A DNA stretch of 64,000 bases. Origin: Nocardioides renjunii (lineage in GTDB: Bacteria > Actinomycetota > Actinomycetes > Propionibacteriales > Nocardioidaceae). The position numbers and the translations under genes are program-made. Below, one piece after another: positions 35,568-49,500 of the stretch (positions are counted from its first letter, which is position 1; each line of letters opens with the position of its first letter). The DNA is taken from the NCBI RefSeq assembly GCF_034661175.1, contig NZ_CP141058.1, positions 1,240,001-1,304,000 on the forward strand, read 5' to 3'. The notes under the pieces were generated by a model. The model saw only the letters and a program-made list of their open reading frames with translations. It was not told the origin of the DNA and ran no database searches.

Positions 35568-36359
35568 TCAGCGGACGAGGCTGTTGCCGTGGACGGCGGC
35601 GAGCCGCGCCTTGACGCTGAGCAGCGTCTCGATGATGAGGTCCTCGCGGCCGTTGTCGAGGCGGCTGATCGGCACGGCGACGCTGAGGGCGTCGACGGCC
35701 TGGTGGCTGAAGGGCAGGGCGACGCCGAAGCAGCGCACGCCCATGCACGACTCCTCGCTCTCGGTGGCGTAGCCGTGGATCTCCGCGCGCTCGATGATCT
35801 CGAGGACCGCGTCCTTGTCGGTGGTGGTGTTGGGCGTGATCGCGCTGATGTGGTCGGGGACCATGTCGCGGCGCTCCTCCAGGGGCAGCTCGGCGAGCAG
35901 CGCCCGGCCCAGGGAGGTGGCGTAGGCGGGCAGGCGCCGGCCGACGGCGGAGTGCATCCGCAGCGGGTGCATCGACTCGCGCTTGGCGGTGTAGATGACG
36001 TCGTGGCCGTCGAGGCGCCCGAGGTGCACGGTCTCCTCGGTGGCCGCCGCGACCTCGTCGAGGACCGAGGCGGCACGCGCGAGCACGGGGTCGCCGTCGA
36101 GGTAGGCCGAGCTCACGACGAGGGAGTGGATCCCGAGCTGGTAGACGCTGCCGGTGGGATCGGTCTGCAGCCACCCGCGGTCCACCATCGTGCGCAGCAG
36201 CGCGTGCAGGCTGCTCTTGGGGATGCTCAGCCGGGTCGAGAGCTGCAGCTGGGTGCCGGGGCCGTTGGCGGCGATCTCGTCGAGCAGGTCGAGCGCCCGG
36301 GCGGCCGACTTGACCGGACCGGCGGCGGTGGGCGGAGCGAGCTCCTTCTGCAGCGTCAT
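35568..36359 (-). CDS. IclR-family regulator of the kdu/KDG catabolic cluster
   Basis: 263 residues, ATG at 36359 after GGGGAGACGAG. N-terminal winged HTH (about 15-75; ARALDLLDEIAANGPGTQLQLSTRLSIPKSSLHALLRTMVDRGWL) and the IclR effector domain (about 90-255; LGRLDGHDVIYTAKRES, GRRLPAYATSLGRALLA, CMGVRCFGVALPF). The KdgR group of this family senses 2-keto-3-deoxygluconate and represses pectin/uronate genes. Divergence from kduI makes the same role likely. Dyads in the kduI promoter are the probable operators. Confidence 0.9.
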   Translation of the reverse strand: MTLQKELAPPTAAGPVKSAARALDLLDEIAANGPGTQLQLSTRLSIPKSSLHALLRTMVDRGWLQTDPTGSVYQLGIHSLVVSSAYLDGDPVLARAASVLDEVAAATEETVHLGRLDGHDVIYTAKRESMHPLRMHSAVGRRLPAYATSLGRALLAELPLEERRDMVPDHISAITPNTTTDKDAVLEIIERAEIHGYATESEESCMGVRCFGVALPFSHQAVDALSVAVPISRLDNGREDLIIETLLSVKARLAAVHGNSLVR

Positions 36360-36431
36360 GGACTCGTCTCCCCGTGATGGTGCGGGGCTCCGTGCCCCGT
36401 CGTGCTCGATCGTAGCGCGAGTTCGCATACA

Positions 36432-36445
36432 TGGACAGTGGTCCA
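36432..36445. promoter_or_regulatory. TGGAC-AGTG-GTCCA dyad between IclR gene and kduI promoter
   Basis: A 5-4-5 inverted repeat just upstream of the kduI -35 and about 75 bp upstream of the IclR start codon. Possible autoregulatory site or activator site for the IclR protein. Confidence 0.4.
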
Positions 36446-36450
36446 GATGC

Positions 36451-36480
36451 TTGACCAGTGACGGGCGTCACGTATACGCT
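36451..36480 (+). promoter_or_regulatory. Predicted kduI operon promoter
   Basis: TTGACC (36451-36456), 18-bp spacer, TACGCT (36475-36480); an overlapping TATACG (36473-36478) is an alternative -10. Initiation would fall within the first GAACNCAGTTC dyad, so a bound repressor would block the start site. Confidence 0.6.
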
Positions 36481-36510
36481 GAACTCAGTTCACATAGACG
36501 AACGCAGTTC
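36480..36510. promoter_or_regulatory. Two GAAC-NCA-GTTC operators (probable IclR/KdgR sites)
   Basis: TGAAC-TCA-GTTCA at 36480-36492 and GAAC-GCA-GTTC at 36500-36510 share the consensus GAAC(T/G)CAGTTC, centres 19 bp apart, nearly two helical turns. They cover the predicted start site and leader of kduI. The spacing suits a pair of regulator dimers on one DNA face. Confidence 0.65.
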
Positions 36511-36534
36511 ATAACACCGAGGAGTGTTCCCGTC

Positions 36535-37350
36535 ATGCAGGTGCGATATTCCACGTCTCCGACCAGTGCGGAGACTGCCACCACGGCAGACCTGCGCGAC
36601 ACCTTCCTGGTCCCGGACCTCTTCGTCAACGGTGAGGTCCACGCCACCTACACCCACGAGGACCGCATGGTGATCGGCGGCGCGGTGCCCGGCACGGGGC
36701 AGCTCGACCTGCCGGCCTGGACCGACGTCCTCGGCACCGAGTCCCACCTCGAGCGCCGCGAGCTCGGCGTCATCAACGTCGGCGGCGCCGGCCACGTCAT
36801 CGTGGACGGCGAGAAGTTCGAGCTCGAGCACCTCGACGGCCTCTACGTCGGCCGGGGGAGCGAGGTCGCCTTCGCCGGCGAGGAGGCCGCCTTCTACTTC
36901 GTGTCGGCCTCGGCCCACGCGACCTACCCCGCCACCCTCCTGAGCCACGAGCAGGTCGAGCCGGTCGCCCTCGGGTCGCCGGAGGCGGCCAACGAGCGCA
37001 GCCTGTTCCGCTACGCGTGGGGCCAGGACCTCGAGACCTCCGTCCTCCAGTTCGGCGTCACCGTCATCGCCGACGGCTCGGTGTGGAACACGTTCCCGCC
37101 CCACCTCCACGCGCGCCGCACCGAGGTCTACTGCTACGTCGACCTGGCCGAGGACGACCGCGTCTTCCACTTCATGGGCCAGCCCGGGCACACCCGCCAC
37201 CTCGTGGTGCGGAACCGCCAGGCCGTCATCGCGCCGCCGTGGTCGATCCACGCCGGCGCCGGCACCGGGTCGTACGCCTTCATCTGGGCGATGGCCGGTG
37301 AGAACAACTGCTACACCGACCTCTCGCCCGTGGCGGTGGACGACCTGTGA
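36535..37350 (+). CDS. kduI: 5-dehydro-4-deoxy-D-glucuronate isomerase KduI
   Basis: 271 residues (family about 278), ATG at 36535. The cupin-like KduI fold has the zinc ligands in FPPHLHARRTEVYCY (two His and Glu) and in WSIHAGAGTG, and the family-typical GGAVPGTGQLDLP and ERRELGVINVGG segments. It isomerises 4-deoxy-L-threo-5-hexosulose uronate, the product of unsaturated uronates from pectin or glycosaminoglycan lyases, to 3-deoxy-2,5-hexodiulosonate. First gene of the coupled operon; kduD starts inside its stop. Confidence 0.95.
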   Translation: MQVRYSTSPTSAETATTADLRDTFLVPDLFVNGEVHATYTHEDRMVIGGAVPGTGQLDLPAWTDVLGTESHLERRELGVINVGGAGHVIVDGEKFELEHLDGLYVGRGSEVAFAGEEAAFYFVSASAHATYPATLLSHEQVEPVALGSPEAANERSLFRYAWGQDLETSVLQFGVTVIADGSVWNTFPPHLHARRTEVYCYVDLAEDDRVFHFMGQPGHTRHLVVRNRQAVIAPPWSIHAGAGTGSYAFIWAMAGENNCYTDLSPVAVDDL

Positions 37351-38162
37351 CCCAGCTCGCCCCCTCCTCCTCCCGGTCCGGCTCCCCGTCGCCCGCCACC
37401 GACGGCGCCCGCTCGCCGTTCGACCTGCACGGCAGGTGCGCGGTGGTGACCGGTGCCGGTCGCGGCATCGGGCGCGCGGTGGCCCTCGGCCTCGCGCAGG
37501 CCGGCGCCGACGTCGTGCTCCTCGGTCGCCCCGGCGCCCAGGACGCCACGCGTGACGCCGTGCAGGAGCTGGGCCGGTCGGTCGACGTGGTCGACCTCGA
37601 CGTGAGCGACCACGACGCCGTCGAGCGCGTGGCCGCCGAGCTGGCCGCCGAGCGCCAGGTCGACGTCCTCGTCAACAACGCCGGGATCATCGACCGCGAG
37701 GACAGCGTCGACGTCGACCGCGCGTCGTGGGAGCGGGTCCTCGACGTGAACCTCACCGGGATGTTCCTCCTCTGCCAGGCGCTCGGGCGTCCGATGGTCG
37801 AGCGCGGCCACGGCAAGATCGTCAGCATCGCCAGCCTGCTGTCCTTCCAGGGCGGCGTCCGCGTGGTGTCGTACGCCGCCAGCAAGCACGGCGTCGCCGG
37901 CGTCACCAAGGCGCTCGCCAACGAGTGGGGACCGCACGGCGTGCAGGTCAACGCGATCGCGCCCGGCTACATCTCCACCGACAACACCACCGCCCTGCGC
38001 GAGGACCCCGACCGCTCGCGGTCCATCCTCGAGCGGATCCCCGCGGGCCGCTGGGGCTCGGCCGACGACATCGCCGGCGCGGCGGTCTTCCTCAGCTCGT
38101 CGGCCGCCGACTACGTCAACGGGCACGTGCTCGCCGTCGACGGCGGCTGGATGGCCCGCTGA
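37347..38162 (+). CDS. kduD: 2-deoxy-D-gluconate / 2,5-diketo-3-deoxygluconate reductase KduD (SDR)
   Basis: 271 residues with a GTG in GTGA overlap with kduI. Classical short-chain dehydrogenase: GAGRGIGRAVA nucleotide loop, LVNNAGI, catalytic Ser in SIASL, YAASK (Tyr and Lys), and PGYISTDNT. KduD reduces 3-deoxy-2,5-hexodiulosonate to 2-keto-3-deoxygluconate with NAD(P)H. The Pro/Ser-rich first 25 residues are an extension. The assignment rests on the fused kduI-kduD order and SDR motifs. Confidence 0.9.
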   Translation: MTQLAPSSSRSGSPSPATDGARSPFDLHGRCAVVTGAGRGIGRAVALGLAQAGADVVLLGRPGAQDATRDAVQELGRSVDVVDLDVSDHDAVERVAAELAAERQVDVLVNNAGIIDREDSVDVDRASWERVLDVNLTGMFLLCQALGRPMVERGHGKIVSIASLLSFQGGVRVVSYAASKHGVAGVTKALANEWGPHGVQVNAIAPGYISTDNTTALREDPDRSRSILERIPAGRWGSADDIAGAAVFLSSSAADYVNGHVLAVDGGWMAR

Positions 38163-38319
38163 CCCACCCGGTTCCCCGCACCACCCCCACCGCACCATCC
38201 CTCACCCCGCCGCACCACCCCACCGCACCACCCCTCACCGCACCACCACTCGGGGCAGTACCTGACCCAGTCAGTCCCACCGCCGGACAACCGGCTCCGA
38301 AAGAGAATGAGGATCGACC

Positions 38320-39405
38320 ATGAAGTTCACCTCTCGACCGACCGCAGTCGTGCTCGGCCTGACCCTGGCAGCTGCCGCCCTCGCCGGCTGCAGCGAGGAG
38401 GCCGGTGGCAGCGGCGGTGGCGGCTCCGAGGCTGGAGCCTGCGCGCCCGAGGACGTCACCCTGGTGGGCCAGGTGCGCAACGAGTCCAACCCCTACGAGG
38501 CTTCGTGGCTCGACGGCGGCGACGCCTTCGCCGAGCAGGTCGGCCTCGAGCAGCAGCGCCTCACCTACGACGCCGACTCGACCAAGCAGCAGGAGCAGAT
38601 CACCCAGCTGCTCGCCGGCAACACCGACTGCCTCGTCATGAACATCCTGCCCAACGGCGACTCCGACACCCTGCCGATCGTCGAGGGTGCCGAGGAGGCC
38701 GGCGCCTACCTCGTCACGCAGTGGAACAAGCCGGCCGACGTCAACGTCACCGACTACGACCAGTGGCTGAGCCACATCACCTACAACGGCGTGGAGTCCG
38801 GCCAGCAGATCGGCGACGCGCTCGCGGAGGCCATCGGCGGCTCGGGCGGCATCATCGCCCTGCAGGGCATCCTCGACACCGGCGCCGCCAAGGACCGCTT
38901 CGCCGGGCTCGAGGCGTCGCTGGAGGCCAACCCCGACGTCGAGCTCCTCGACGACCAGACCGCCAACTTCTCGCGCGACGAGGCGCTGGCCGTCACCAAG
39001 ACGCTCCTCACCAAGCACGGTGACGACGTCAAGGGCATCTGGGCCGCCAACGACGACATGGCGCTCGGCGCGCTCGCGGCGCTCGAGCAGGCGGGCCGGG
39101 ACGACGTCGCGGTCGTCGGCATCGACGCCGTCCCGGACGCGCTGACCGCCATCGAGGACGGCGCCATGACCGCGACCGTCTCCTCGGACGGCCCGTGGCA
39201 GGGCGGCATCGGCCTGGCCATCGGCTACTGCGTGGCCACCGGTGAGCTCTCCGTCGACGACATCGCCGACGAGGACCGCGCCTGGTTCGCCGAGCAGTTC
39301 CTCATCACCGGCGACAACGTCGGCGAGTTCACCGCTCCCGAGGTGGACGAGTCCGACTTCGCGTGCGACAACGTCTTCAGCCGGTCGCAGGGCCCGATCT
39401 CGTGA
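38320..39405 (+). CDS. Sugar ABC transporter substrate-binding lipoprotein (RbsB-like)
   Basis: 361 residues, ATG at 38320. Lipoprotein signal with lipobox LAGC, modified Cys C24, then a Gly/Ser-rich linker. The binding domain is the periplasmic-binding-protein type I fold (TLVGQVRNESNPYEASWLDGGDAFAEQVG; IWAANDDMALGALAALEQAG; VAVVGIDAVPDAL). Preceded by 157 bp with C-rich CCGCACCACC-like runs and no hairpin. It delivers substrate to the two permeases and ATPase encoded next. From the cluster, a deoxy-keto uronate, KDG or oligo-uronate is a plausible substrate. Confidence 0.92.
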   Translation: MKFTSRPTAVVLGLTLAAAALAGCSEEAGGSGGGGSEAGACAPEDVTLVGQVRNESNPYEASWLDGGDAFAEQVGLEQQRLTYDADSTKQQEQITQLLAGNTDCLVMNILPNGDSDTLPIVEGAEEAGAYLVTQWNKPADVNVTDYDQWLSHITYNGVESGQQIGDALAEAIGGSGGIIALQGILDTGAAKDRFAGLEASLEANPDVELLDDQTANFSRDEALAVTKTLLTKHGDDVKGIWAANDDMALGALAALEQAGRDDVAVVGIDAVPDALTAIEDGAMTATVSSDGPWQGGIGLAIGYCVATGELSVDDIADEDRAWFAEQFLITGDNVGEFTAPEVDESDFACDNVFSRSQGPIS

Positions 39406-40421
39406 CCATGACATCCCCCGCCAAGGCCGACGACGAGGTCGTGATCCCGCCGCGCCCCCAGCCTCGGCGGGGGGTGTCGCTCCGGGACGCTGGTCCCCCG
39501 ATCGCGCTGGTGGTCATCGTCGGCATCTTCTCGGTGCTGAGCCCTGACTTCCGCACGGTCGGCAACGTGCAGAACATCCTGGACGCGGCGGCGGTCCTCG
39601 CCGTCGTCACCTGCGGCATCTCCTTCGTGCTGATGATGGGGTCGATCGACCTCTCGGTCCCTGGAGTGATGGGGGCCTCCGCGATCGCGGTCGCCCTGCT
39701 CGTCGCCAACAACCGCAACGGCAACGACTGGGGACTCCTCGGCGTCCTCGTCGCGGTCCTGCTCGGCTCGGCCCTCGGCTGCCTGAGCGGCATGGCGCTG
39801 GTGACGCTGAAGGTCCCGTCCTTCATGACCACTCTCGGTGTGTCGGCCGTCGGGCTCGGCGTCGCGACGCTGCTGTTCTCCGGCGTGCAGCCCAACATCT
39901 CCGACGAGATGCTGCGCAGCTGGGCCGTCAGCCGCTTCCTGGGCCTGGCCTACCTGACGTGGATCGCCGTCGGCTGCGTGCTCGTCGGCTGGCTCGTCCA
40001 GCGCTACTCGCGCCTGGGCCGCTACGCGTACGCGATCGGCGGCGCCGAGGAGGTGTTGTCCCTCTCCGGCGTGAAGGTCGCCCCCTACAAGGTCGCCGTG
40101 TTCACCCTCGCCGGGTCGTTCTACGGGCTCGCGGGCGTGCTGGTGACGAGCCAGCTCAGCGCCGGGCTCGTCCAGGCGGGCAAGGGCTACGACTTCGCGG
40201 CGATCACCGCCGCCGTCGTCGGTGGCACCCTGCTCACCGGCGGTCGCGGGGGAGTGCTCCACTCCGCCGTCGGCGTCCTCCTCGTCACCGTCCTGACCAA
40301 CGGCCTCGTGCAGATCGGGGTCAGCCCCTACTGGCAGGGCGGTGTCCAGGGCCTCATCGTCGTCGCGGCCGTCTCGGCCGCGGTCATCCCCCAGCGTCGT
40401 AGGAACCAGGTGACCAAGTGA
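39402..40421 (+). CDS. Sugar ABC transporter permease (RbsC-like) 1
   Basis: 339 residues; GTG at 39402 overlaps the binding-protein stop, with an ATG two codons on as an alternative. Eight to ten hydrophobic helices and the BPD_transp_2 pattern: VTCGISFVLMMGSIDLSVPGVMG, TLKVPSFMTTLGVSAVGLGV, YAIGGAEEVLSLSGVKVAPYK (the EAA-like cytoplasmic loop that contacts the ATPase) and AAVVGGTLLTGGRGG. Translational coupling on both sides. Confidence 0.92.
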   Translation: MTMTSPAKADDEVVIPPRPQPRRGVSLRDAGPPIALVVIVGIFSVLSPDFRTVGNVQNILDAAAVLAVVTCGISFVLMMGSIDLSVPGVMGASAIAVALLVANNRNGNDWGLLGVLVAVLLGSALGCLSGMALVTLKVPSFMTTLGVSAVGLGVATLLFSGVQPNISDEMLRSWAVSRFLGLAYLTWIAVGCVLVGWLVQRYSRLGRYAYAIGGAEEVLSLSGVKVAPYKVAVFTLAGSFYGLAGVLVTSQLSAGLVQAGKGYDFAAITAAVVGGTLLTGGRGGVLHSAVGVLLVTVLTNGLVQIGVSPYWQGGVQGLIVVAAVSAAVIPQRRRNQVTK

Positions 40422-41980
40422 CCACCGACCTGCAGCTCCAGCCCGACGCCCCGGCGCCGGCTCCCGTCCCCGCCCTCGAGGTGCGCGGACTGGTCAAGCA
40501 CTACCCGGGCGTCAAGGCGCTCGACGGCGTCGACCTCGTCGTGCGCCAGCACGAGGTGCTCGGCCTCGCCGGCGAGAACGGCGCCGGCAAGTCCACGCTC
40601 CTCAAGGCGCTCGTCGGCCTGGTCCGCCCCGACTCCGGCGAGATCTGGGTCCGGGGCGAGAAGGTCCGCCTGCGCAGCGTCGTCGAGGCCGCCGACCACG
40701 GCATCGGCATGGTGTTCCAGGAGCAGTCGCTCGTCCCCAACCTCACCGCCGCGGAGAACATCGTCCTGGGCAGCGAGGGCGCCGGCGTGCGCCGCGGGAT
40801 CTACCGCTGGGACACGATGCGCAAGCTCGCGCAGGCCCAGCTCGACAAGATCGGCTCCCACATCGACCCGCTGGCGCGCACCGACATGTTGACGTTCGCC
40901 GAGCGGCAGATGGTCGAGATCGCCAAGGTCCTCCGCATCGAGGAGCGCACCTCCCACCCGCCCGTCATCATCCTCGACGAGCCCACCTCGGTGCTGGAGT
41001 CCAAGGAGATCGAGACGCTCTTCACCCAGGTCCGCCGGCTCCGCGAGTTCGCGTCGGTGGTCTTCGTCTCGCACCGCCTCGACGAGGTGCTCGACGTGTG
41101 CGACCGGGTCACCGTGCTCCGCGGCGGGCAGTCGGTGGGCGAGGTGGCCACCGCGGGCGCCGCGCCCTCGGAGCTGCACCGCATGATGATCGGCTCGACG
41201 GGCTCCGACGACCACTACCACGCGGGACTCTCGGAGCGGACCGCGGCGGAGGCCGAGCCCCGCCTGGTCGTCACCGGGCTGTCCGGCAGGACCTTCCGCG
41301 ACGTGGACCTCGAGGTCAGGGCCGGTGAGATCGTCGGCATCGTCGGCGTGCACGGCTCGGGGCGCGAGGACGTGTGCCGCGCGCTCTTCGGGGCCGAGCC
41401 CACCCTGGCCGGCGAGGTCACCCTCGACGGCCGGAAGCTCGACCTGTCCGGCACCCGGGCCGCCGTGGCCTCCGGCGTCGGCTACGTGCCCGCCGAGCGC
41501 AAGATCGAGGGCATGGTCGGCCCGATGTCGGTCGCCGACAACATGACCCTCACCAAGCAGAAGTCGCGCTGCGCCGGCCCGATGGTGGTGCCGCAGAAGC
41601 AGGCCACCCTGGTCGACAAGTGGATCGAGCGGCTCTCGATCCGCACCCCGCACCGCGGCACGCAGATCGGGCGCCTGTCCGGCGGCAACCAGCAGAAGGT
41701 CGTCCTGGCGCGCTGGCTGGTGGCCGGCGACATCCGCCTGCTGCTCCTCGACCACCCGACCCGCGGCCTCGACATCGGCGCCCGCTCGGAGGTCTACCGG
41801 CTGATGCGCGAGCTCGCCAACAGCGGCGTGGCCACCGTGCTCCTCGCCGACAGCCTGGAGGAGGCCATCGGGATGTCCGACCGGATCATCGTGATGAGCG
41901 ACGGTCGGGCGACCGCCGAGGTCGCGTGCCCCCACGGCGGCAAGCCGACCCCGCTCGACCTGGTGAAGGAGATGGTCTGA
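40418..41980 (+). CDS. Sugar ABC transporter ATPase, two NBDs (RbsA/MglA-like)
   Basis: 520 residues, GTG in GTGA overlap. NBD1: Walker A GENGAGKST, Q-loop VFQEQ, Walker B VIILDEPTSVLE, but a degenerate signature (LTFAERQMVEIAKVL). NBD2: degenerate Walker A (GVHGSGRED), intact LSGGNQQKVVLARWL, and Walker B LLLLDHPTRGLD, where the catalytic Glu after Asp is His. So each composite ATP site has one weakened component, a known feature of this family. The E-to-H change is noted separately. Energises uptake through the two permeases. Confidence 0.93.
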   Translation: MTTDLQLQPDAPAPAPVPALEVRGLVKHYPGVKALDGVDLVVRQHEVLGLAGENGAGKSTLLKALVGLVRPDSGEIWVRGEKVRLRSVVEAADHGIGMVFQEQSLVPNLTAAENIVLGSEGAGVRRGIYRWDTMRKLAQAQLDKIGSHIDPLARTDMLTFAERQMVEIAKVLRIEERTSHPPVIILDEPTSVLESKEIETLFTQVRRLREFASVVFVSHRLDEVLDVCDRVTVLRGGQSVGEVATAGAAPSELHRMMIGSTGSDDHYHAGLSERTAAEAEPRLVVTGLSGRTFRDVDLEVRAGEIVGIVGVHGSGREDVCRALFGAEPTLAGEVTLDGRKLDLSGTRAAVASGVGYVPAERKIEGMVGPMSVADNMTLTKQKSRCAGPMVVPQKQATLVDKWIERLSIRTPHRGTQIGRLSGGNQQKVVLARWLVAGDIRLLLLDHPTRGLDIGARSEVYRLMRELANSGVATVLLADSLEEAIGMSDRIIVMSDGRATAEVACPHGGKPTPLDLVKEMV

Positions 41981-41981
41981 G

Positions 41982-42989
41982 ATGAGCACACCGGTCCTCA
42001 CGACCCCCGAGTCCAACCCGGCGGCCGAGCCCGCCATCGTCAAGGGCGGTCCCACCGTCGGCCAGCGCGTCACCTCGTTCATGCCGCTCATCGCGCTCGT
42101 CGCGCTGCTCGCGGCCCTCACGGTCGCCGACCCCGACTTCATCACCCAGCGCAGCCTCACCGCCGCCGTACGCACGTCGGCCCCGCTGGTCGTGCTCGCG
42201 GCCGGTGCCACGCTGGTGGTGCTGTGCGGTGGCATCGACCTGTCGATCGCCGCCCTCTGCTCCCTGTCGACGGTGTTCTTCGCGATGTGGTTGCCCGACC
42301 TCGGTGGCCTCACCGTGCTCGGCGTCATCGCCGCGGCCGGCGCCATCGGCGCCGTCCAGGGCATCGCGCACGTGCTGCTGAGGATCCCGTCGTTCGTCGT
42401 CACGCTCGGAGGCATGAGCATCTTCTCCGCGATCGCGCTCGTCATCTCCGACGCCGGGCCCATCCGGGTCGTCGACCGCGACGCCACGAAGTGGCTCAAC
42501 CTCTACGTCGCCGGCTACGTCCCGATGTCGTTCTTCGTCGCGCTCCTCGTCGTCGCGGTGATCTCGCTCGTCATCAAGCTCACGCCGCTGGAGAGCTTCG
42601 TCCGGGCCACCGGCTACTCGGAGTCGGCCGCCCGGCTGGCCGGCACGCCCGTCGACCTGGTGAAGGTCGCCGCGTTCACGGTGTCGGGCGCCTGTGCCGG
42701 CCTCGCCGCCGTCATGCTCGCCTCCCGCAACTTCAGCGGCAGCCCCACGATGGCCGACAACCTGCTGCTCCCCGCGGTGGCGGCCATCGTGGTCGGCGGC
42801 ACAGCCATCACCGGCGGTCACGGCTCGCTGTGGCGCAGCCTCGCCGGCGCCCTCGTCGTCACCCTGCTCCGGGTGGGCCTGCCGATCGTCGGCGTCCCGT
42901 CCGCCTGGGAGCAGATCCTCTACGGCGCCATCATCGTCGCCGCCGTCGCGCTCACCCTCGACCGGTCGAAGGTGCTGATCATCAAGTAG
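41982..42989 (+). CDS. Sugar ABC transporter permease (RbsC-like) 2
   Basis: 335 residues, ATG at 41982, one base after the ATPase stop. Same BPD_transp_2 family as the first permease: LVVLAAGATLVVLCGGIDLSIAAL, RIPSFVVTLGGMSIFSAIALV, FVRATGYSESAARLAGTPVDLVK coupling loop, and AIVVGGTAITGGHGSLWRS. The two different permeases flanking one double ATPase indicate a heterodimeric channel. Confidence 0.92.
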   Translation: MSTPVLTTPESNPAAEPAIVKGGPTVGQRVTSFMPLIALVALLAALTVADPDFITQRSLTAAVRTSAPLVVLAAGATLVVLCGGIDLSIAALCSLSTVFFAMWLPDLGGLTVLGVIAAAGAIGAVQGIAHVLLRIPSFVVTLGGMSIFSAIALVISDAGPIRVVDRDATKWLNLYVAGYVPMSFFVALLVVAVISLVIKLTPLESFVRATGYSESAARLAGTPVDLVKVAAFTVSGACAGLAAVMLASRNFSGSPTMADNLLLPAVAAIVVGGTAITGGHGSLWRSLAGALVVTLLRVGLPIVGVPSAWEQILYGAIIVAAVALTLDRSKVLIIK

Positions 42990-43098
42990 CAGCCCGACCC
43001 CGACCGCCACCCTGACCTCCAACCCCCCCGATCGCCCCGACACCCGACACCCGATCCACGATCCGCCACGAACCCCGCCACGAACCCGGAAGGCTCCC

Positions 43099-44589
43099 AT
43101 GTCCGAGAACTCCCAGCTCCTCCCCGCCGTCTCCTCGTTCCTCTCCTCGCCGCGCCAGCTGCTCATCGACGGCGAGTGGGTCGACGCCAAGGACGGCCAG
43201 ACGTTCGACACCGTCAACCCGGCCACCGAGGAGGTCCTCGTGCAGGTGGCCCGCGCCTCGGCCGTGGACGCCGACCGCGCCGTCGTGGCCGCCCGCAACG
43301 CCTTCGAGGCCGGGTCGCCGTGGTCGCGGATGACGCCGCGCGAGCGCTCGCACCTGCTGTGGCGCATCGGCGACATGATCGACGAGCGCGCCGAGGAGTT
43401 CGCCCAGCTCGAGTCGCTCGACAACGGCAAGAGCCTGGCCTCGGCCCGCGGCGACGTCGGCGTGGCCGCCGAGCTGTTCCGCTACTTCGCCGGCTGGGCC
43501 ACCAAGATGGAGGGCACCACCATCCCGATGTCGGTGCCCGGTCGCGAGTTCCACGCCTACACCCGCCGTGAGGCCATCGGTGTTGTCGCCGGCATCGTCC
43601 CGTGGAACTTCCCGCTCACCATGGCGGCGTTCAAGATCATCCCGTCGATCACCGCGGGCAACACCGTGGTGCTCAAGCCGGCCGAGCAGACGCCGCTGAC
43701 GGCGCTGCGGCTGGGCCAGCTGCTGCTCGAGGCCGGCGTGCCCGCCGGCGTGGTCAACATCCTGCCCGGCTTCGGTGACGCGGGTGCCGCCCTCGTCGAC
43801 CACGCCGACGTAGACAAGGTCGCCTTCACCGGCAGCACCGAGGTCGGCAAGAAGATCGCCGCCGGTGCGTCCAGGAACCTCAAGAAGGTCTCGCTCGAGC
43901 TCGGCGGCAAGGCGCCCAACATCATCTTCGCCGACGCCGACCTGGACGCCGCGATCGCCGGCGCCGCGCTGGCGGGCTACTTCAACGAGGGCCAGTGCTG
44001 CGTCAACGGCTCGCGCCTCTACGTCCAGCGCGAGGTCTTCGACCAGGTCATCGAGGGCGTCGCCGCCGCCGCGAAGGCGATCCGGGTGGGCGACGCGTTC
44101 GACCCGGCCACCACGATGGGGCCGCTGGTCTCCCAGGAGCAGCACGAGAAGGTGATGGGCTACGTCCGCGGCGCGGTCGCCGACGGCGCCACCATCGCCG
44201 CGGGCAGCCCCGACCCGGCGGCCGAGCGCGGCTACTTCTTCTCCCCGACGCTCATCACCGACGTGACCGAGCAGATGGCGGTGCAGACCGATGAGATCTT
44301 CGGCCCGGTCATCACCGCGATCCCGTTCGACTCCGAGGACGAGGTCGTCGCCGCCGCCAACAACACCGTCTACGGCCTCGCGGCCGGCGTCTGGTCCAAG
44401 GACCTCGGCACCGCCCACCGGGTCGGCGGCAAGCTGCGGGCCGGCACGGTCTGGCTCAACACCTGGCACGCCGACGACGTCACGCTGCCGCGCGGTGGCT
44501 TCAAGCAGTCCGGCTGGGGCCGCGAGCTCGGGTCGTTCGGCCTGGACGACTACACCGAGCTCAAGACCGTCATCGCCGAGCTCCGGTGA
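43099..44589 (+). CDS. NAD(P)-dependent aldehyde dehydrogenase
   Basis: 496 residues, ATG at 43099 after GGAAGG. Full ALDH: GIVPWNFPLTMAAFKI, KPAEQTPL, FTGSTEVGKKI, general base in LELGGKAPN, catalytic Cys C301 (NEGQCCVNGSRL), EIFGPV, and GGFKQSGWGRELG at the C-terminus. Similar to betaine-aldehyde/phenylacetaldehyde type enzymes; the exact aldehyde is unknown. In this operon it may oxidise an aldehyde derived from the uronate or an aldehyde made by the downstream copper oxidase; both are inference. The KDPG aldolase gene starts in its stop codon. Confidence 0.9.
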   Translation: MSENSQLLPAVSSFLSSPRQLLIDGEWVDAKDGQTFDTVNPATEEVLVQVARASAVDADRAVVAARNAFEAGSPWSRMTPRERSHLLWRIGDMIDERAEEFAQLESLDNGKSLASARGDVGVAAELFRYFAGWATKMEGTTIPMSVPGREFHAYTRREAIGVVAGIVPWNFPLTMAAFKIIPSITAGNTVVLKPAEQTPLTALRLGQLLLEAGVPAGVVNILPGFGDAGAALVDHADVDKVAFTGSTEVGKKIAAGASRNLKKVSLELGGKAPNIIFADADLDAAIAGAALAGYFNEGQCCVNGSRLYVQREVFDQVIEGVAAAAKAIRVGDAFDPATTMGPLVSQEQHEKVMGYVRGAVADGATIAAGSPDPAAERGYFFSPTLITDVTEQMAVQTDEIFGPVITAIPFDSEDEVVAAANNTVYGLAAGVWSKDLGTAHRVGGKLRAGTVWLNTWHADDVTLPRGGFKQSGWGRELGSFGLDDYTELKTVIAELR

Positions 44590-45254
44590 TCCACGGAGTG
44601 AAGCCCACCGTGAGCGCGACCGACGTCCTGGGCGGCCACCGCATCGTGCCGGTGGTCGTCCTGGACGACCCGGCCAGGGCCGACGCGCTCGGCGCCGCCC
44701 TCGTCGAGGGCGGGCTGCCGGTCGCCGAGGCGACGTTCCGCACGCCCGGGGCGGCCGCCGTCCTGCGCCGGCTCGCCGAGAACGCCGACCTGGTCGTCGG
44801 GGCCGGCACCGTCCTCACCGACCGCCAGGTCGACGAGGCGCTGGAGGCGGGGGCGCGGTTCGTCGTGTCGCCGGGCCTCAGCGCCGCCGTCGTACGACGC
44901 TGCCAGGACGCCGGCGTGCCGGTCGTCCCCGGTGTCGCCACCCCGACGGAGGTCATGCAGGCCCTCGACCTCGGCCTCGACACCGTGAAGTTCTTCCCGG
45001 CCGAGGCCAACGGGGGACTGCCCACGATCAAGGCGCTGGCCGCCGCCTTCCCGCAGGTGCGGTTCATGCCCACCGGCGGGATCACGGCCGAGAGCGCCCC
45101 GGCCTACCTCGCCCACCCGGCGGTCGCCGCCGTCGGCGGCAGCTGGATGGTCGCCGGCGACCTGCTGGCGACCGGCCGCTGGGACGAGGTCGCCGCCCGC
45201 TGCGCCGCCTCGACGCGGCTCTACCACCCGACCCTCGAAGGAGCACCCGCATGA
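44586..45254 (+). CDS. eda: 2-keto-3-deoxy-6-phosphogluconate (KDPG) aldolase
   Basis: 222 residues, GTG in GTGA overlap with the dehydrogenase gene (later GTGs at 44598 and 44610 possible). TIM-barrel class I aldolase: E48 (VAEATFRT), GAGTVL, SPGLS, GVATPTEV, Schiff-base Lys K135 (TVKFFPAEANGG) and MPTGGI. It splits KDPG to pyruvate and glyceraldehyde-3-phosphate, the last step of the pathway encoded here. Confidence 0.93.
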   Translation: MIHGVKPTVSATDVLGGHRIVPVVVLDDPARADALGAALVEGGLPVAEATFRTPGAAAVLRRLAENADLVVGAGTVLTDRQVDEALEAGARFVVSPGLSAAVVRRCQDAGVPVVPGVATPTEVMQALDLGLDTVKFFPAEANGGLPTIKALAAAFPQVRFMPTGGITAESAPAYLAHPAVAAVGGSWMVAGDLLATGRWDEVAARCAASTRLYHPTLEGAPA

Positions 45255-46348
45255 TCGAGACCCGTCCGGCCGAGGAGTGCGAGCTCGACATCGTCGCGCT
45301 CGGGGAGGTGATGCTGCGCCTCGACCCGGGGGAGGGCCGCATCCGCACCGCCCGCCGGTTCGAGGCCTGGGAGGGCGGCGGCGAGTACAACGTCGCCCGC
45401 GGCATGCGCAAGGTCTTCGGCCTGCGCGCCGGGGTCGTCACCGCCCTCGCTGACAACGAGATCGGCCACCTCGTCGAGAACCTCGTCATGCAGGGCGGCG
45501 TGGACACCTCGCTGATCCGCTGGGAGGACTACGACGGCATCGGGCGCACGGTGCGCAACGGGCTCAACTTCACCGAGCGCGGCTACGGCGTCCGCGGCGC
45601 GGTCGGTGTCTCCGACCGGGCCAACACCGCGATCGCCCACCTGGCGCCCGGCACCGTGGACTGGGACGACCTGTTCGGTCGACGTGGCGTGCGCTGGCTG
45701 CACACCGGCGGCATCTACGCCGCCCTGTCCGAGAACGCCGCCGCGGTGGCGGAGGAGGCGATGGCGGCCGCCCGGCGGCACGGGACGATCGTGTCCTTCG
45801 ACCTCAACTACCGGCCCAGCCTGTGGGCGGGCATCGGCGGCACCGAGCGCGCCCGCGACGTGAACACCCGGCTCGCGGAGCACGTGGACGTGATGATCGG
45901 CAACGAGGAGGACTTCACCGCGGCCCTCGGCTTCGAGGTGGCCCACGTCGACGAGCACCTCAGCACGCTGCCGATGGACAGCTTCGAGGCGATGGTCGCC
46001 ACGGTCGCGGAGAAGATGCCCTGGCTCCAGGTCGTCGCGACGACCTTGCGCACCGTGCACACCGCCAGCGACAACGACTGGCAGGCCATCGCGTGGTCGC
46101 CGGAGACGGGCGTGCTCGCCTCGACGCCCCGCGAGCACCTCGGCATCTTCGACCGCGTGGGAGGCGGTGACGGCTTCGCCTCCGGGCTGGTCTACGGCCT
46201 GCTGGAGGGCGAGCCGCTGCAGCAGTGCCTCGAGCTCGGCGCCGCCCACGGCGCGCTCGCCATGACCACCCCCGGTGACACCTCGATGGCCACCCGGGAG
46301 GAGGTGCGCGCGCTCGCCGGTGGCGGCAGCGCGCGCGTACGTCGCTAG
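45251..46348 (+). CDS. kdgK: 2-keto-3-deoxygluconate kinase (PfkB family)
   Basis: 365 residues, ATG in ATGA overlap with eda. Ribokinase/PfkB fold: ALGEVMLRLDPGEG at the N-terminus, GGEYNVARGM substrate loop, VSFDLNYRPSLW, IGNEEDF, and the anion-hole/catalytic-base motif DRVGGGDGFASGLVYGL. Sequence and placement next to eda support KdgK, which phosphorylates KDG to KDPG. Length is somewhat over the usual 310-340. It closes the operon before a strong hairpin. Confidence 0.92.
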   Translation: MIETRPAEECELDIVALGEVMLRLDPGEGRIRTARRFEAWEGGGEYNVARGMRKVFGLRAGVVTALADNEIGHLVENLVMQGGVDTSLIRWEDYDGIGRTVRNGLNFTERGYGVRGAVGVSDRANTAIAHLAPGTVDWDDLFGRRGVRWLHTGGIYAALSENAAAVAEEAMAAARRHGTIVSFDLNYRPSLWAGIGGTERARDVNTRLAEHVDVMIGNEEDFTAALGFEVAHVDEHLSTLPMDSFEAMVATVAEKMPWLQVVATTLRTVHTASDNDWQAIAWSPETGVLASTPREHLGIFDRVGGGDGFASGLVYGLLEGEPLQQCLELGAAHGALAMTTPGDTSMATREEVRALAGGGSARVRR

Positions 46349-46375: not shown

Positions 46376-46428
46376 CAGGCCTGGGCGGTCCGACCCCGTG
46401 CGGGGGATCGGCCGCCCAGGCCTGCTTT
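46376..46428 (+). terminator. Terminator hairpin of the kdu/ABC/kdgK operon
   Basis: CAGGCCTGGGCGG (46376-46388) pairs with CCGCCCAGGCCTG (46412-46424), 13-bp stem plus inner CCGA/TCGG pairs, followed by CTTTC. Lies 28 bp after the kdgK stop. Confidence 0.75.
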
Positions 46429-46470
46429 CATGTATCGGAACGTTTGCGCCGTCGAGTTCACAATTCTGGA

Positions 46471-46507
46471 CAGAGTTCTTGACTCTGTGTGATGCCCGTC
46501 ATACGTT
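46471..46507 (+). promoter_or_regulatory. Promoter of the ThuA/copper-oxidase gene with overlapping dyad
   Basis: TTGACT (46479-46484), 17-bp spacer, TACGTT (46502-46507). A perfect CAGAGT-N5-ACTCTG dyad (46471-46487) overlaps the -35, a repressor-like placement. The surrounding 60 bp is unusually A/T-rich for the window. The leader to the chosen ATG would be about 70 nt. Confidence 0.6.
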
Positions 46508-46581
46508 TCCGCTGTCTCGTGAGCGCTGACCGCACCCGCCGCCCGCCGAGCTCCGCCCCGCCGAGCCCTAGGGAAACGTTG

Positions 46582-49500
46582 ATGAACCTGCTGCACCGAT
46601 CTGCCCGCCGGCGCCCGACACGGCGCCTCCGCCGCGCAGCGACACGAGTCGTCGCCCTGACCGCCGCCCTCGGCGTCGCGCTCCCGCTCGCCACCCTCGC
46701 CGCCGCGCCCGCGACCGCCGTGACCGCGTCGGCTGCGCCCGGCGACGACGACGTGCTGCGCGTCCTGCTGTTCTCGAGCGGCGACGGCGTGCACGGCTCG
46801 GTGGCCAACACCCGCGCCGCGGTCAAGGAGATGGCCAACTCGCTCGCGGCCCAGTACGGCCTCGACGGCAACACCGGCGACGCGTCCAAGGCCGTCGCCG
46901 AGGTGCAGGAGACGACCAACGCCGCCGTCTTCACCCCCGAGAACCTCGGCACCAAGGACCTGCTGGTGTTCGCCCACACCGCGGGGGTGCTCTTCAACAC
47001 CGACCAGCGGGCCGCCCTGGAGGGCTACATCCGCGGCGGCGGCGGGTTCGCGGGCATCCACTACACCTCGTGGTCCCCCGACCAGACCGAGCACGACGTG
47101 AACCCGTTCTACCGCCGGCTCGTCGGCGCGGCGTCCACGGGCCACCCCGAGCCCGCCGGCGGCCAGCGGGGCACCGTCACCGTCACCGACGGCGCCCACC
47201 CGCTCACCGCGGGCATCAGCTCGCCGCTGTCCTACACCGACGAGTGGTACGAGTGGGACGTCAACCCCACGCAGAACGTGCGCACCCTCGTGACCGTCGA
47301 CGAGTCCACCTACGCCCCCGGCGCCCGGATCGGTGAGGAGGGCACGTCCCACCCGGTGACCTGGTGCCAGTCCATCGACCAGGGTCGCTCGTGGTACTCC
47401 TCGCTCGGGCACCACGCCTCGGCCTGGACCGCGGCCGACGACGGCGGCAACGCCAACGACAACCAGGCCGACGACTTCGTCCGGGCCCAGCTGCGCAACG
47501 GCATGGCCTACTCCGCCGGCCTGCTGCCCGCCGACTGCTCGCCCCCGAAGAAGGACGAGCAGGGCGAGATGAGCGCCGTCACGCCGTGGCCGCTCATGCC
47601 CATCAACGCCGCCCTCACCTCCGACGGCAAGGTCCAGTCCTTCGGCTCGGTGGGCTCGGGCTGCACCGACAACACGCCGTACGACTACAGCGGCAACGAC
47701 TGCGTCACGCAGGGCGGCCAGATGGAGATCGACGTCTGGGACCCGACGGTGGTGCGCACCGTGGCCAACCTGGTCTCCGGCGTCGTCCCCAACGCGACCT
47801 ACACCGACCTGTTCTGCTCCATGCAGGTGCAGATGCCGCACCGTCGCTCGACGTTCACCGTCGGCGGTGACGACGGCCTCGGCGGCAACGCGCCCAACGA
47901 CGCCGCCATCGGCGTCACCAGCTACTCCACGGGCAAGGGCCTCAAGAACGAGGCGCCGATGAACTTCCCGCGCTGGTACCCGACCGGCACCACGCTGCCC
48001 AACGGCTCCATCGTCGCCCAGGGCGGCTCGCTGCGCGGCGGCCCCGGCGGCCCGGGAGTGCTCACGCCCGAGGTCTACGACCCGCAGCAGGGCAGCTCCT
48101 GGAAGCTGCTGACCGGCGCCACCAGCGCCCAGGCCTACGGCGACGGCGCCGACGCCCCCCAGGACGAGAACCGCTGGTGGTACCCCCGCGCCTTCGTCGC
48201 CCCGACCAACGGCAACGTCTTCACCATCACCGGCACCCAGATGTTCGAGCTCGACCCGTCCGGCGACGGTGCGGTCACGATGCGCGGCACGCTGGGCAAC
48301 GGCACCGGCAACCAGGGCGCCCTCGGCAACCCGGTCGGCGCCACCTCGACCGCCACGATGTACCGCCCCGGCAAGATCCTGCAGGTCGGCGGCGGCTGGT
48401 GGGCCAACGGCGGCGGCCCCGCCGGCGCCCGTGCCGGGTTCACCGTCGACATCTCGGGCGGCACCGCCGCCCCGGTGGTCACCGCGACCGACCCGATGAA
48501 GCACCGACGCCACTGGGCGACCTCGACGGTCATGCCCGACGGCAGGGTGCTCGTCACCGGTGGATCGCGCGACAACAACGGCCAGGGCGGCTACGTCACC
48601 AACCCGGAGATCTGGAACCCGGACGCCCCGAGCGGTCAGCAGTGGACCGAGGTCGAGATCCCCTACGAGCACGCCCGGCTCTACCACTCGGTCGCGCTGC
48701 TCCTGCCCGACGGCCGGATCATGATCGGCGGCGGCGGCGCCCCGGGCCCGCACAACTACACCGACGTGGAGTACTACTCCCCGGCCTACCTCTTCGACGG
48801 CGACGAGCCGGCCGTGCGGCCGGTCGTCACCAACGCCCCGAGGAAGATCGGCTACGACGGCACGTTCTCGCTGTCCTCGGACAAGCCGGTCGAGCGGGTC
48901 ACCCTCGTCCGCAACGGCTCGGTCACCCACGGCTTCAACAACGACCAGAACTTCCAGGACCTGTCGTTCACGCAGTCGGGCGGCACGGTCAGCGTCACCT
49001 CCCCGACGAACGCCAACTTCGCGCCCCCCGGTGCCTACATGGTCTTCGTGTGGAGCGGCGGCGTCCCGTCCGTGGCCAAGATCGTCCAGATCGACCCGAC
49101 CGTGAAGATGGCCGCGCCGGCTCCGACCGTCGTCGACCAGTTCGAGTACCCCCGCCTGCCCGCCTCGTGGCGGTCCGGCACCTACGACAGCGTCCAGGTG
49201 GCGGCGGGCAACGGCCGCATGTCGCCGTGGGTCGTCGACGACCAGGTGCAGCTCATCCGCGCCAACGCGGGCGGCATGGGCGCCCTCGGCCTCACCGGCT
49301 ACCACCTCGCGGTGGGTGCCGACGGCGAGCTGACCCGCACCCTCAAGGGCCTGAGCGTGGGCAAGCAGTACCGCCTGTCGGTGCGCTACGCCCGTGACAG
49401 CCGCTCCGCCGGCACCGCGCCCGGCACGGCCGCCCTCTCGATCGCCGACCTGACCACCACCTTGTCGGCGTCCACCCAGAAGTCGTCCAACGCCGCCTTC

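Follow-up and report, generated by a model that had tools for sequence, protein, structure and literature searches.

Putative IclR-type three-box operators at the kduI locus of Nocardioides renjunii

In the 64,000-nucleotide window of Nocardioides renjunii DNA analysed here (the whole stretch, from contig NZ_CP141058.1), two GAAC-N3-GTTC dyads in front of kduI appear to be fragments of three-box operators that the product of the divergent iclR gene would bind, repressing the kdu operon, iclR itself and a gene for a secreted ThuA-domain protein until a KDG-like inducer appears, with a probable Crp layer on top; we put the probability of this reading at about 0.8. It draws on the sequence, its conservation, the co-occurrence of the regulator and the genome-wide specificity of the motif, from which we infer binding, the direction of control, the inducer and the role of Crp.

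The iclR gene (minus strand) and kduI (plus strand) diverge with 175 bp between them. The features of this region are given below, with fractions referring to an alignment of 25 intergenic sequences.

35568-36359, minus strand: iclR, encoding the presumed binder (263 aa; ATG at 36359, Shine-Dalgarno GGGGAG)
36409-36414, minus strand: predicted iclR promoter -10, TACGAT (A...TA just upstream of box U1 in 23/25)
36421-36436, plus strand: iclR-side operator GTTCGCATACATGGAC, boxes U1 GTTC (22/25) and U2 GGAC (23/25), 8 bp apart
36437-36432, minus strand: predicted weak -35 of the iclR promoter, TGTCCA
36441-36444, plus strand: third box of the iclR-side operator, GTCC in the window and NTTC in the 24 relatives, at a spacing of 4 or 3 bp
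36451-36456, plus strand: predicted kdu promoter -35, TTGACC (25/25)
36458-36471, plus strand: Crp/GlxR-like GTGA-N6-TCAC inside the kdu promoter spacer (GTGA 20/25, GTGG in the other 5; TCAC 24/25; variable centre, 0.86 bits)
36475-36480, plus strand: predicted kdu promoter -10, TACGCT (TA...T in 24/25)
36481-36484, plus strand: fourth, lineage-restricted box GAAC, the left arm of the first dyad (5/25)
36488-36510, plus strand: kdu three-box operator GTTC-ACATAGAC-GAAC-GCA-GTTC, about +1 to +23 (boxes 23/25, 25/25 and 24/25; third GTTC at 36507)
36535-37350, plus strand: kduI, first gene of the presumably regulated operon (NCBIfam PRK00924, 364 bits against a cut-off of 250)
37347-46348, plus strand: rest of the presumed operon, with kduD, RbsB-like binding protein, permease, ATPase, permease, aldehyde dehydrogenase, KDPG aldolase and PfkB-type sugar kinase
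44586-45254, plus strand: the KDPG aldolase gene of this operon, product above its NCBIfam cut-off
45257-46348, plus strand: the PfkB-type sugar kinase gene, last of the presumed operon

The sequence-only reading had described two dyads of the same consensus 19 bp apart on the predicted transcription start, with a further TGGAC-N4-GTCCA dyad upstream, and all three are where it placed them: GAACTCAGTTC at 36481-36491 and GAACGCAGTTC at 36500-36510, 19 bp from start to start, and the upstream element at 36432-36445. GAACNNNGTTC occurs twice in the window against 0.28 expected, a count reached in 1 of 100 shuffles, and GAACNCAGTTC is found in the 4,403,084-base genome at these two places only (reversed control, 0). 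A readable, conserved -35/-10 pair with an 18-bp spacer puts the kdu start near 36487, at the first GTTC box, but a mechanical sigma-70 scan returned no promoter in 36300-36600, and the kdu and iclR promoter calls rest on conservation in the alignment.

That alignment comprised the window and 24 other non-redundant iclR-kduI intergenic regions from Nocardioides and Promicromonospora, five of them from the latter; left out were a sequence from the window's own species (L003), one in which the kdu side is gone (L011), duplicates (L031-L035, L037, L039, L040) and the weaker relatives L049-L060. When all 16-bp windows were ranked by information content, 36421-36436 came first (1.71 bits) and 36488-36503 second (1.67 bits), compared with 0.49 bits for the iclR leader. 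Both have the form GTTC-N8-GRAC (GTTCGCATACATGGAC and GTTCACATAGACGAAC, respectively), and each is followed 3 or 4 bp on by a third box in the orientation of the first. Judged by this conservation, the operator unit is GTTC-N8-GRAC-N3/4-NTTC, and the symmetry that had been read into the dyads does not survive, only 5 of 25 sequences having the left GAAC at 36481, and all 24 others having NTTC where the window has the upstream GTCC at 36441. Since the left GAAC is so restricted, the second dyad corresponds to the last two kdu boxes and the first to an extra lineage-restricted box joined to the first GTTC. With the symmetry wrong, the search signature derived from it is wrong as well: GAAC-N3-GTTC (GAACNNNGTTC), proposed as a regulon signature, occurs at 14 places in the genome against 4 in the control, of which 4 lie in the regulon found here and the other 10 were unexamined, and it misses the operators of iclR and the ThuA gene. 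Among the weaker relatives, L051, L052, L054 and L055 carry GTTC-N8-GAAC pairs and L053 has, by inspection, ATTC-N8-GAAC-N3-ATTC; the strict pair was not found in the remaining members of L049-L060. Three Promicromonospora species (L013-L015) have an extra repeat, GACGAACGCGATTCG, after the kdu three-box, which looks like the addition of another box pair to the operator. LexA/DinR boxes have the form CGAAC-N4-GTTCG, and such an identity was rejected on spacing, the dyads here having N3 and the conserved pair being GTTC-N8-GAAC.

The gene content of the operon fits a uronate pathway, in which an unsaturated uronate is converted via DKI and DKII to KDG, then to KDPG and pyruvate. KduI, KduD and the KDPG aldolase exceed their NCBIfam cut-offs, the binding protein, permeases and ATPase form a sugar ABC importer, and the best matches of the PfkB-type kinase (an aldolase/sugar kinase fusion and a KDG/KDGal kinase) stay below theirs.

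The iclR product is an IclR-family protein, with an IclR-type helix-turn-helix (HTH_IclR PF09339, 44.4 bits, cut-off 22) and an IclR effector domain (IclR_C PF01614, 118.3 bits, cut-off 24) in Pfam. No NCBIfam equivalog cut-off was reached by its matches to BhcR (126 bits, cut-off 350), KdgR (NF011671, 118.5 against 275) or PcaR/PcaU (TIGR02431, 119.5 against 284.75). Its top solved-structure matches, practically level, were the KdgR effector domain 1ysp (79.1 bits), which we take to be the Escherichia coli protein, and the Pca-regulon regulator 8eju (79.0 bits). With no equivalog assigned and these two regulators level among the structures, the inducer is a guess. Nocardioides sp. zg-1308 has the same protein (100% identity), and 16 named loci, one from the window's own species, encode relatives of it. 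A close ortholog (E < 1e-120) was present in 18 of 197 family genomes, 17 of which also have KduI (E up to 1e-20; the exception is G154), and, conversely, all 17 KduI-bearing genomes of the window's genus in this set, its own genome and the same species included, encode a close ortholog. A partial KduI match, located at the end of a contig, was also seen in one genome from a different genus (G015), which has no close IclR. On the strength of the protein domains, the match to published IclR motif classes and this co-occurrence, the earlier assignment of the dyads to the divergent IclR gene is very probably right.

The Promicromonospora proteins (L012-L016) are 84-87% identical to that of the window, and one from Nocardioides (L018) is further off at 77%, which suggests, from these identities, lateral transfer of the iclR-kdu cluster between what we take to be distant genera. 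The kdu locus of G120 encodes two IclR paralogs, which share 75% and 54% identity with the protein of the window and are separated by about 12 kb (G120:C1:396434 and 408933), and a three-box stands before a cupredoxin-like gene at 420429. Nocardioides lacusdianchii (L011) retains iclR and its own operator, with the kdu side replaced by other sequence and the junction, by eye, inside the former kdu promoter spacer.

The layout of the operators has precedents in the family, among them that of HmgR, which controls aromatic catabolism. Suvorova and Gelfand 2021 (PMC8222616) describe in their main text two IclR motif arrangements, which 32 orthologous groups combine as three alternating boxes; PcaU, PobR and HmgR are the known cases there, the third box is needed for PcaU binding, and PcaU and PobR are tabulated as controlling aromatic catabolism (their Table 1). 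By its sequence, the kdu operator belongs to this class: its boxes alternate, one pair has group 1 spacing and the adjacent pair group 2 spacing, and an IclR gene stands beside a sugar-acid operon, whereas its pair has an even length of 16 bp, closest by our comparison to the NGT-12-ACN subgroup, and a fourth box accompanies it in 5 of 25 sequences. With the operators of PcaU, PobR and HmgR it shares an inverted pair plus an external direct half-site repeat (PMC8222616); their boxes read GTTCGAT and those here GTTC-RCATA. Gamma-proteobacterial KdgR is likewise an IclR-family protein, listed with pectin/polygalacturonate control in Table 1 of the same paper, and its effector domain is the top structure match, level with the Pca regulator, but its operator RWWGAAACGNCGTTTCAKKA is of an A/T-rich palindromic kind unlike the sites described here. 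The neighbourhood of the window's regulator, a kduI/kduD operon with a KDPG aldolase and a KDG-kinase-like gene, agrees with KdgR-type control. The words kdu and Nocardioides do not occur in the main text of PMC8222616, none of the papers searched matched Nocardioides with kduI, and searches for kduI with IclR and for KdgR with Streptomyces yielded, by title and start of abstract, nothing on this locus.

A strict genome search with GTTC-N8-GRAC-N3/4-RTTC gave five places at four loci and none in the control: the window has an overlapping pair at kdu and a single match at 46456-46478, and the other two are at 3709362 and 4356064. The window's iclR operator was missed because its third box is GTCC. 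A looser search with the 16-mer GTTCNCATANNNGRAC at up to two mismatches (73 and 63 matches, against 77 and 74 in the control) was discarded as a regulon marker, showing no excess as a whole; its zero-mismatch matches were the two iclR-kdu operators, and it also pointed to 46426 and 46456. The downstream site in the window comprises these features:

46426-46441, plus strand: TTTCATGTATCGGAAC, an accessory two-box that precedes the ThuA-gene operator by exactly 30 bp
46456-46478, plus strand: ThuA-gene three-box operator GTTCACAATTCTGGACAGAGTTC, abutting a predicted -35 TTGACT (46479-46484; -10 TACGTT at 46502-46507)
46489-46502, plus strand: GTGATGCCCGTCAT, a Crp-like GTGA-N6-TCA(C/T) between -35 and -10 of the ThuA-gene promoter
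46582-52434, plus strand: gene for a secreted 1950-aa protein with ThuA, galactose-oxidase-like E-set, LamG and Big_9/cadherin-like domains (Pfam), 10 kb downstream of the kdu operator

The start of the ThuA gene was revised from 46489 to 46582, as inferred from the promoter position and a signal peptide-like N-terminus. Among 15 relatives scanned, 14 have the gene and 12 the three-box abutting the -35 (L099 and L103 have the gene without it), and in 10 of these 12 a two-box likewise lies 30 bp earlier; according to PMC8222616, IclR sites roughly three helical turns apart are also over-represented. The two other matches precede genes for secreted proteins, at 3709362 a cupredoxin/PKD protein and at 4356064 a CBM/DUF1080/5'-nucleotidase-C protein. 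The expected link to carbohydrate genes holds for the targets found. The cupredoxin site is also found ahead of homologs in L138-L142 and L150, as well as in L156 and L159, where the first box is ATTC; in G137, which has the regulator, it is degenerate. The CBM site recurs before homologs in L148 and L149 (71% and 57% identical), and two further homologs (L143 and L144, 58%) stand behind a ThuA-type promoter. Coding conservation (ATG TCG AAC) as an explanation of the 4356064 site was dropped, the site in L148 and L149 again preceding a homolog of the CBM gene. A site group GTTCGAAACATAGAACACTGTTC (L145-L147) was set aside; it overlaps a different long palindrome and stands upstream of a gene whose product in L146 is TetR-like by eye. 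In another genome, six alternating GTTC/GAAC boxes, forming four overlapping three-box matches (G213:C2:158061-158109), possibly mark another IclR target.

Outside the iclR-kdu region, three-box matches numbered 51 in 17 genomes with the regulator versus 33 in 29 without it (Mann-Whitney p = 4e-5, relatedness uncorrected), or 38 in 17 once 13 ThuA-gene sites are subtracted; the regulator-free set was drawn from 98 genomes and consists of those also searched for IclR in the family survey. The box grammar is thus not exclusive to this regulator, and the cupredoxin and CBM targets are therefore candidates: other proteins may use the same grammar, and these two sites could belong to one of them. 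We consider it rather unlikely that another IclR-family regulator owns both. The 33 matches in regulator-free genomes would agree with such an owner, as would the 8-bp centres of the two sites, AGGAGTGC and AGCATGTC, which differ from ACATAGAC and GCATACAT; however, tblastn with IclR (E up to 1e-3) found no relative around either site (about 9.4 + 2.6 kb and 11 + 1.9 kb on either side), in G218 the cupredoxin gene immediately follows iclR, with a three-box in the gap, and G123, whose best IclR match (E 4.8e-19) is not a close one, has the cupredoxin gene but has lost boxes 1 and 3 of its site.

The GTGA-N6-TCAC element in the kdu promoter suggests a second, Crp-type input. GTGA-N6-TCAT or CCAT accompanies all 12 ThuA-gene three-boxes, the cupredoxin promoter of the window's genome carries GTGG-N6-TCAC, and no such element was noticed in the iclR promoter. 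GTGAN6TCAC occurs 59 times in the genome versus 12 in the reversed control. A single Crp homolog exceeds its Pfam cut-off in the genome, with 3mzh (1.7e-77) and 4byy (2.5e-75) as closest solved structures, both presumably actinobacterial Crp/GlxR proteins. The GlxR consensus is TGTGA-N6-TCACA, and aceA is repressed by GlxR (PMC7999487); compared with the sites in that paper, the kdu element has the core GTGA-N6-TCAC, conserved, and the genome encodes a GlxR/Crp-type ortholog, whereas the outer T and A are absent at kdu and the element lies between -35 and -10. This unusual placement, and the GTGG found in 5 of 25 kdu promoters, would suit a mere part of a strong promoter spacer, yet we think that explanation unlikely, given that the arms are conserved while the centre varies, that the motif exceeds its control, that the ortholog is encoded and that the promoters of the ThuA and cupredoxin genes have the element too. 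The pattern TTGACN0-8GTGAN6TCA gave six matches in the genome versus one in the control, at least one of the six (L136) apparently inside a gene; it looks like coding sequence and was dismissed as a chance match. Two further loci (L132 and L137; G000:C1:201494, 4371351, minus) also have a Crp-like element between -35 and -10, and next to the -10 each shows, on visual inspection, a palindrome resembling a sugar-repressor operator.

Because the operators of kdu, iclR and the ThuA gene lie across or directly against predicted promoters, repression with autoregulation is the likely mode of control. An IclR dimer or tetramer on the kdu operator would block RNA polymerase; a second operator copy, which overlaps the iclR promoter at its spacer and at the predicted weak -35, would provide autorepression, and a third, against the ThuA-gene -35, would repress that gene. 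IclR would be released on binding an intermediate of the pathway, for which KDG or a closely related compound is the most plausible candidate, and the Crp/GlxR-type site in the kdu and ThuA promoter spacers would probably add global carbon control. Some IclR proteins activate rather than repress, and PcaU and PobR are activators that recruit RNA polymerase in the presence of inducer. It seems quite improbable that the operators here serve activation in this manner, with IclR bound and recruiting the polymerase when inducer is present: the three-box architecture is common to PcaU, PobR and HmgR (PMC8222616) and the iclR-side site, some 40-55 bp ahead of the kdu -10, is placed where an activator could work, but repression is favoured both by the kdu site, which sits on the predicted start and downstream of it, and by the iclR site, which falls within the promoter of iclR itself, and the kdu -35 is near-consensus and invariant in the alignment. 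Two tandem GAAC-N3-GTTC palindromes of group 2 geometry, each holding an IclR dimer with centres 19 bp apart as a tetramer site, are very unlikely, for all that the dyads are perfect, fit the consensus TGRAACAN1-2TGTTYCA, have a spacing inside the 18-22 bp range that PMC8222616 gives for tandem IclR sites and keep all four boxes in 5 of 25 sequences, since 20 of 25 lack the left box of the first dyad while keeping the 8-bp-spaced pair and GAAC-N3-GTTC is absent from the iclR and ThuA operators.

Read as three-box operators under repression, these sites suggest that IclR likely keeps the uronate operon, iclR itself and the genes of a few sugar-related secreted proteins repressed as long as no breakdown product is present. 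As a sequence-based assignment, the kdu site is an ordinary but well-supported addition to the IclR three-box operators, with a regulon that appears small, specific and partly unexpected. For an uncharacterised IclR of soil actinobacteria with a link to uronates, it supplies a regulon signature that is both precise and specific, and it connects the KduI/KduD pathway with several large, functionally unassigned secreted proteins; the natural four-box and three-box variants bear on the alternative-dimerisation idea published for IclR operators. More tentatively, and at somewhat less than even odds, one Nocardioides IclR may co-control KduI/KduD together with large secreted ThuA/galactose-oxidase-like, cupredoxin/PKD and CBM/DUF1080 3-keto-glycoside-hydrolase-like proteins, with a Crp/GlxR site between -35 and -10 beside the three-box. 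If true, this would be an undescribed polysaccharide-utilisation regulon in which 3-keto-sugar chemistry is joined to uronate catabolism under a Crp switch embedded in the core promoter.
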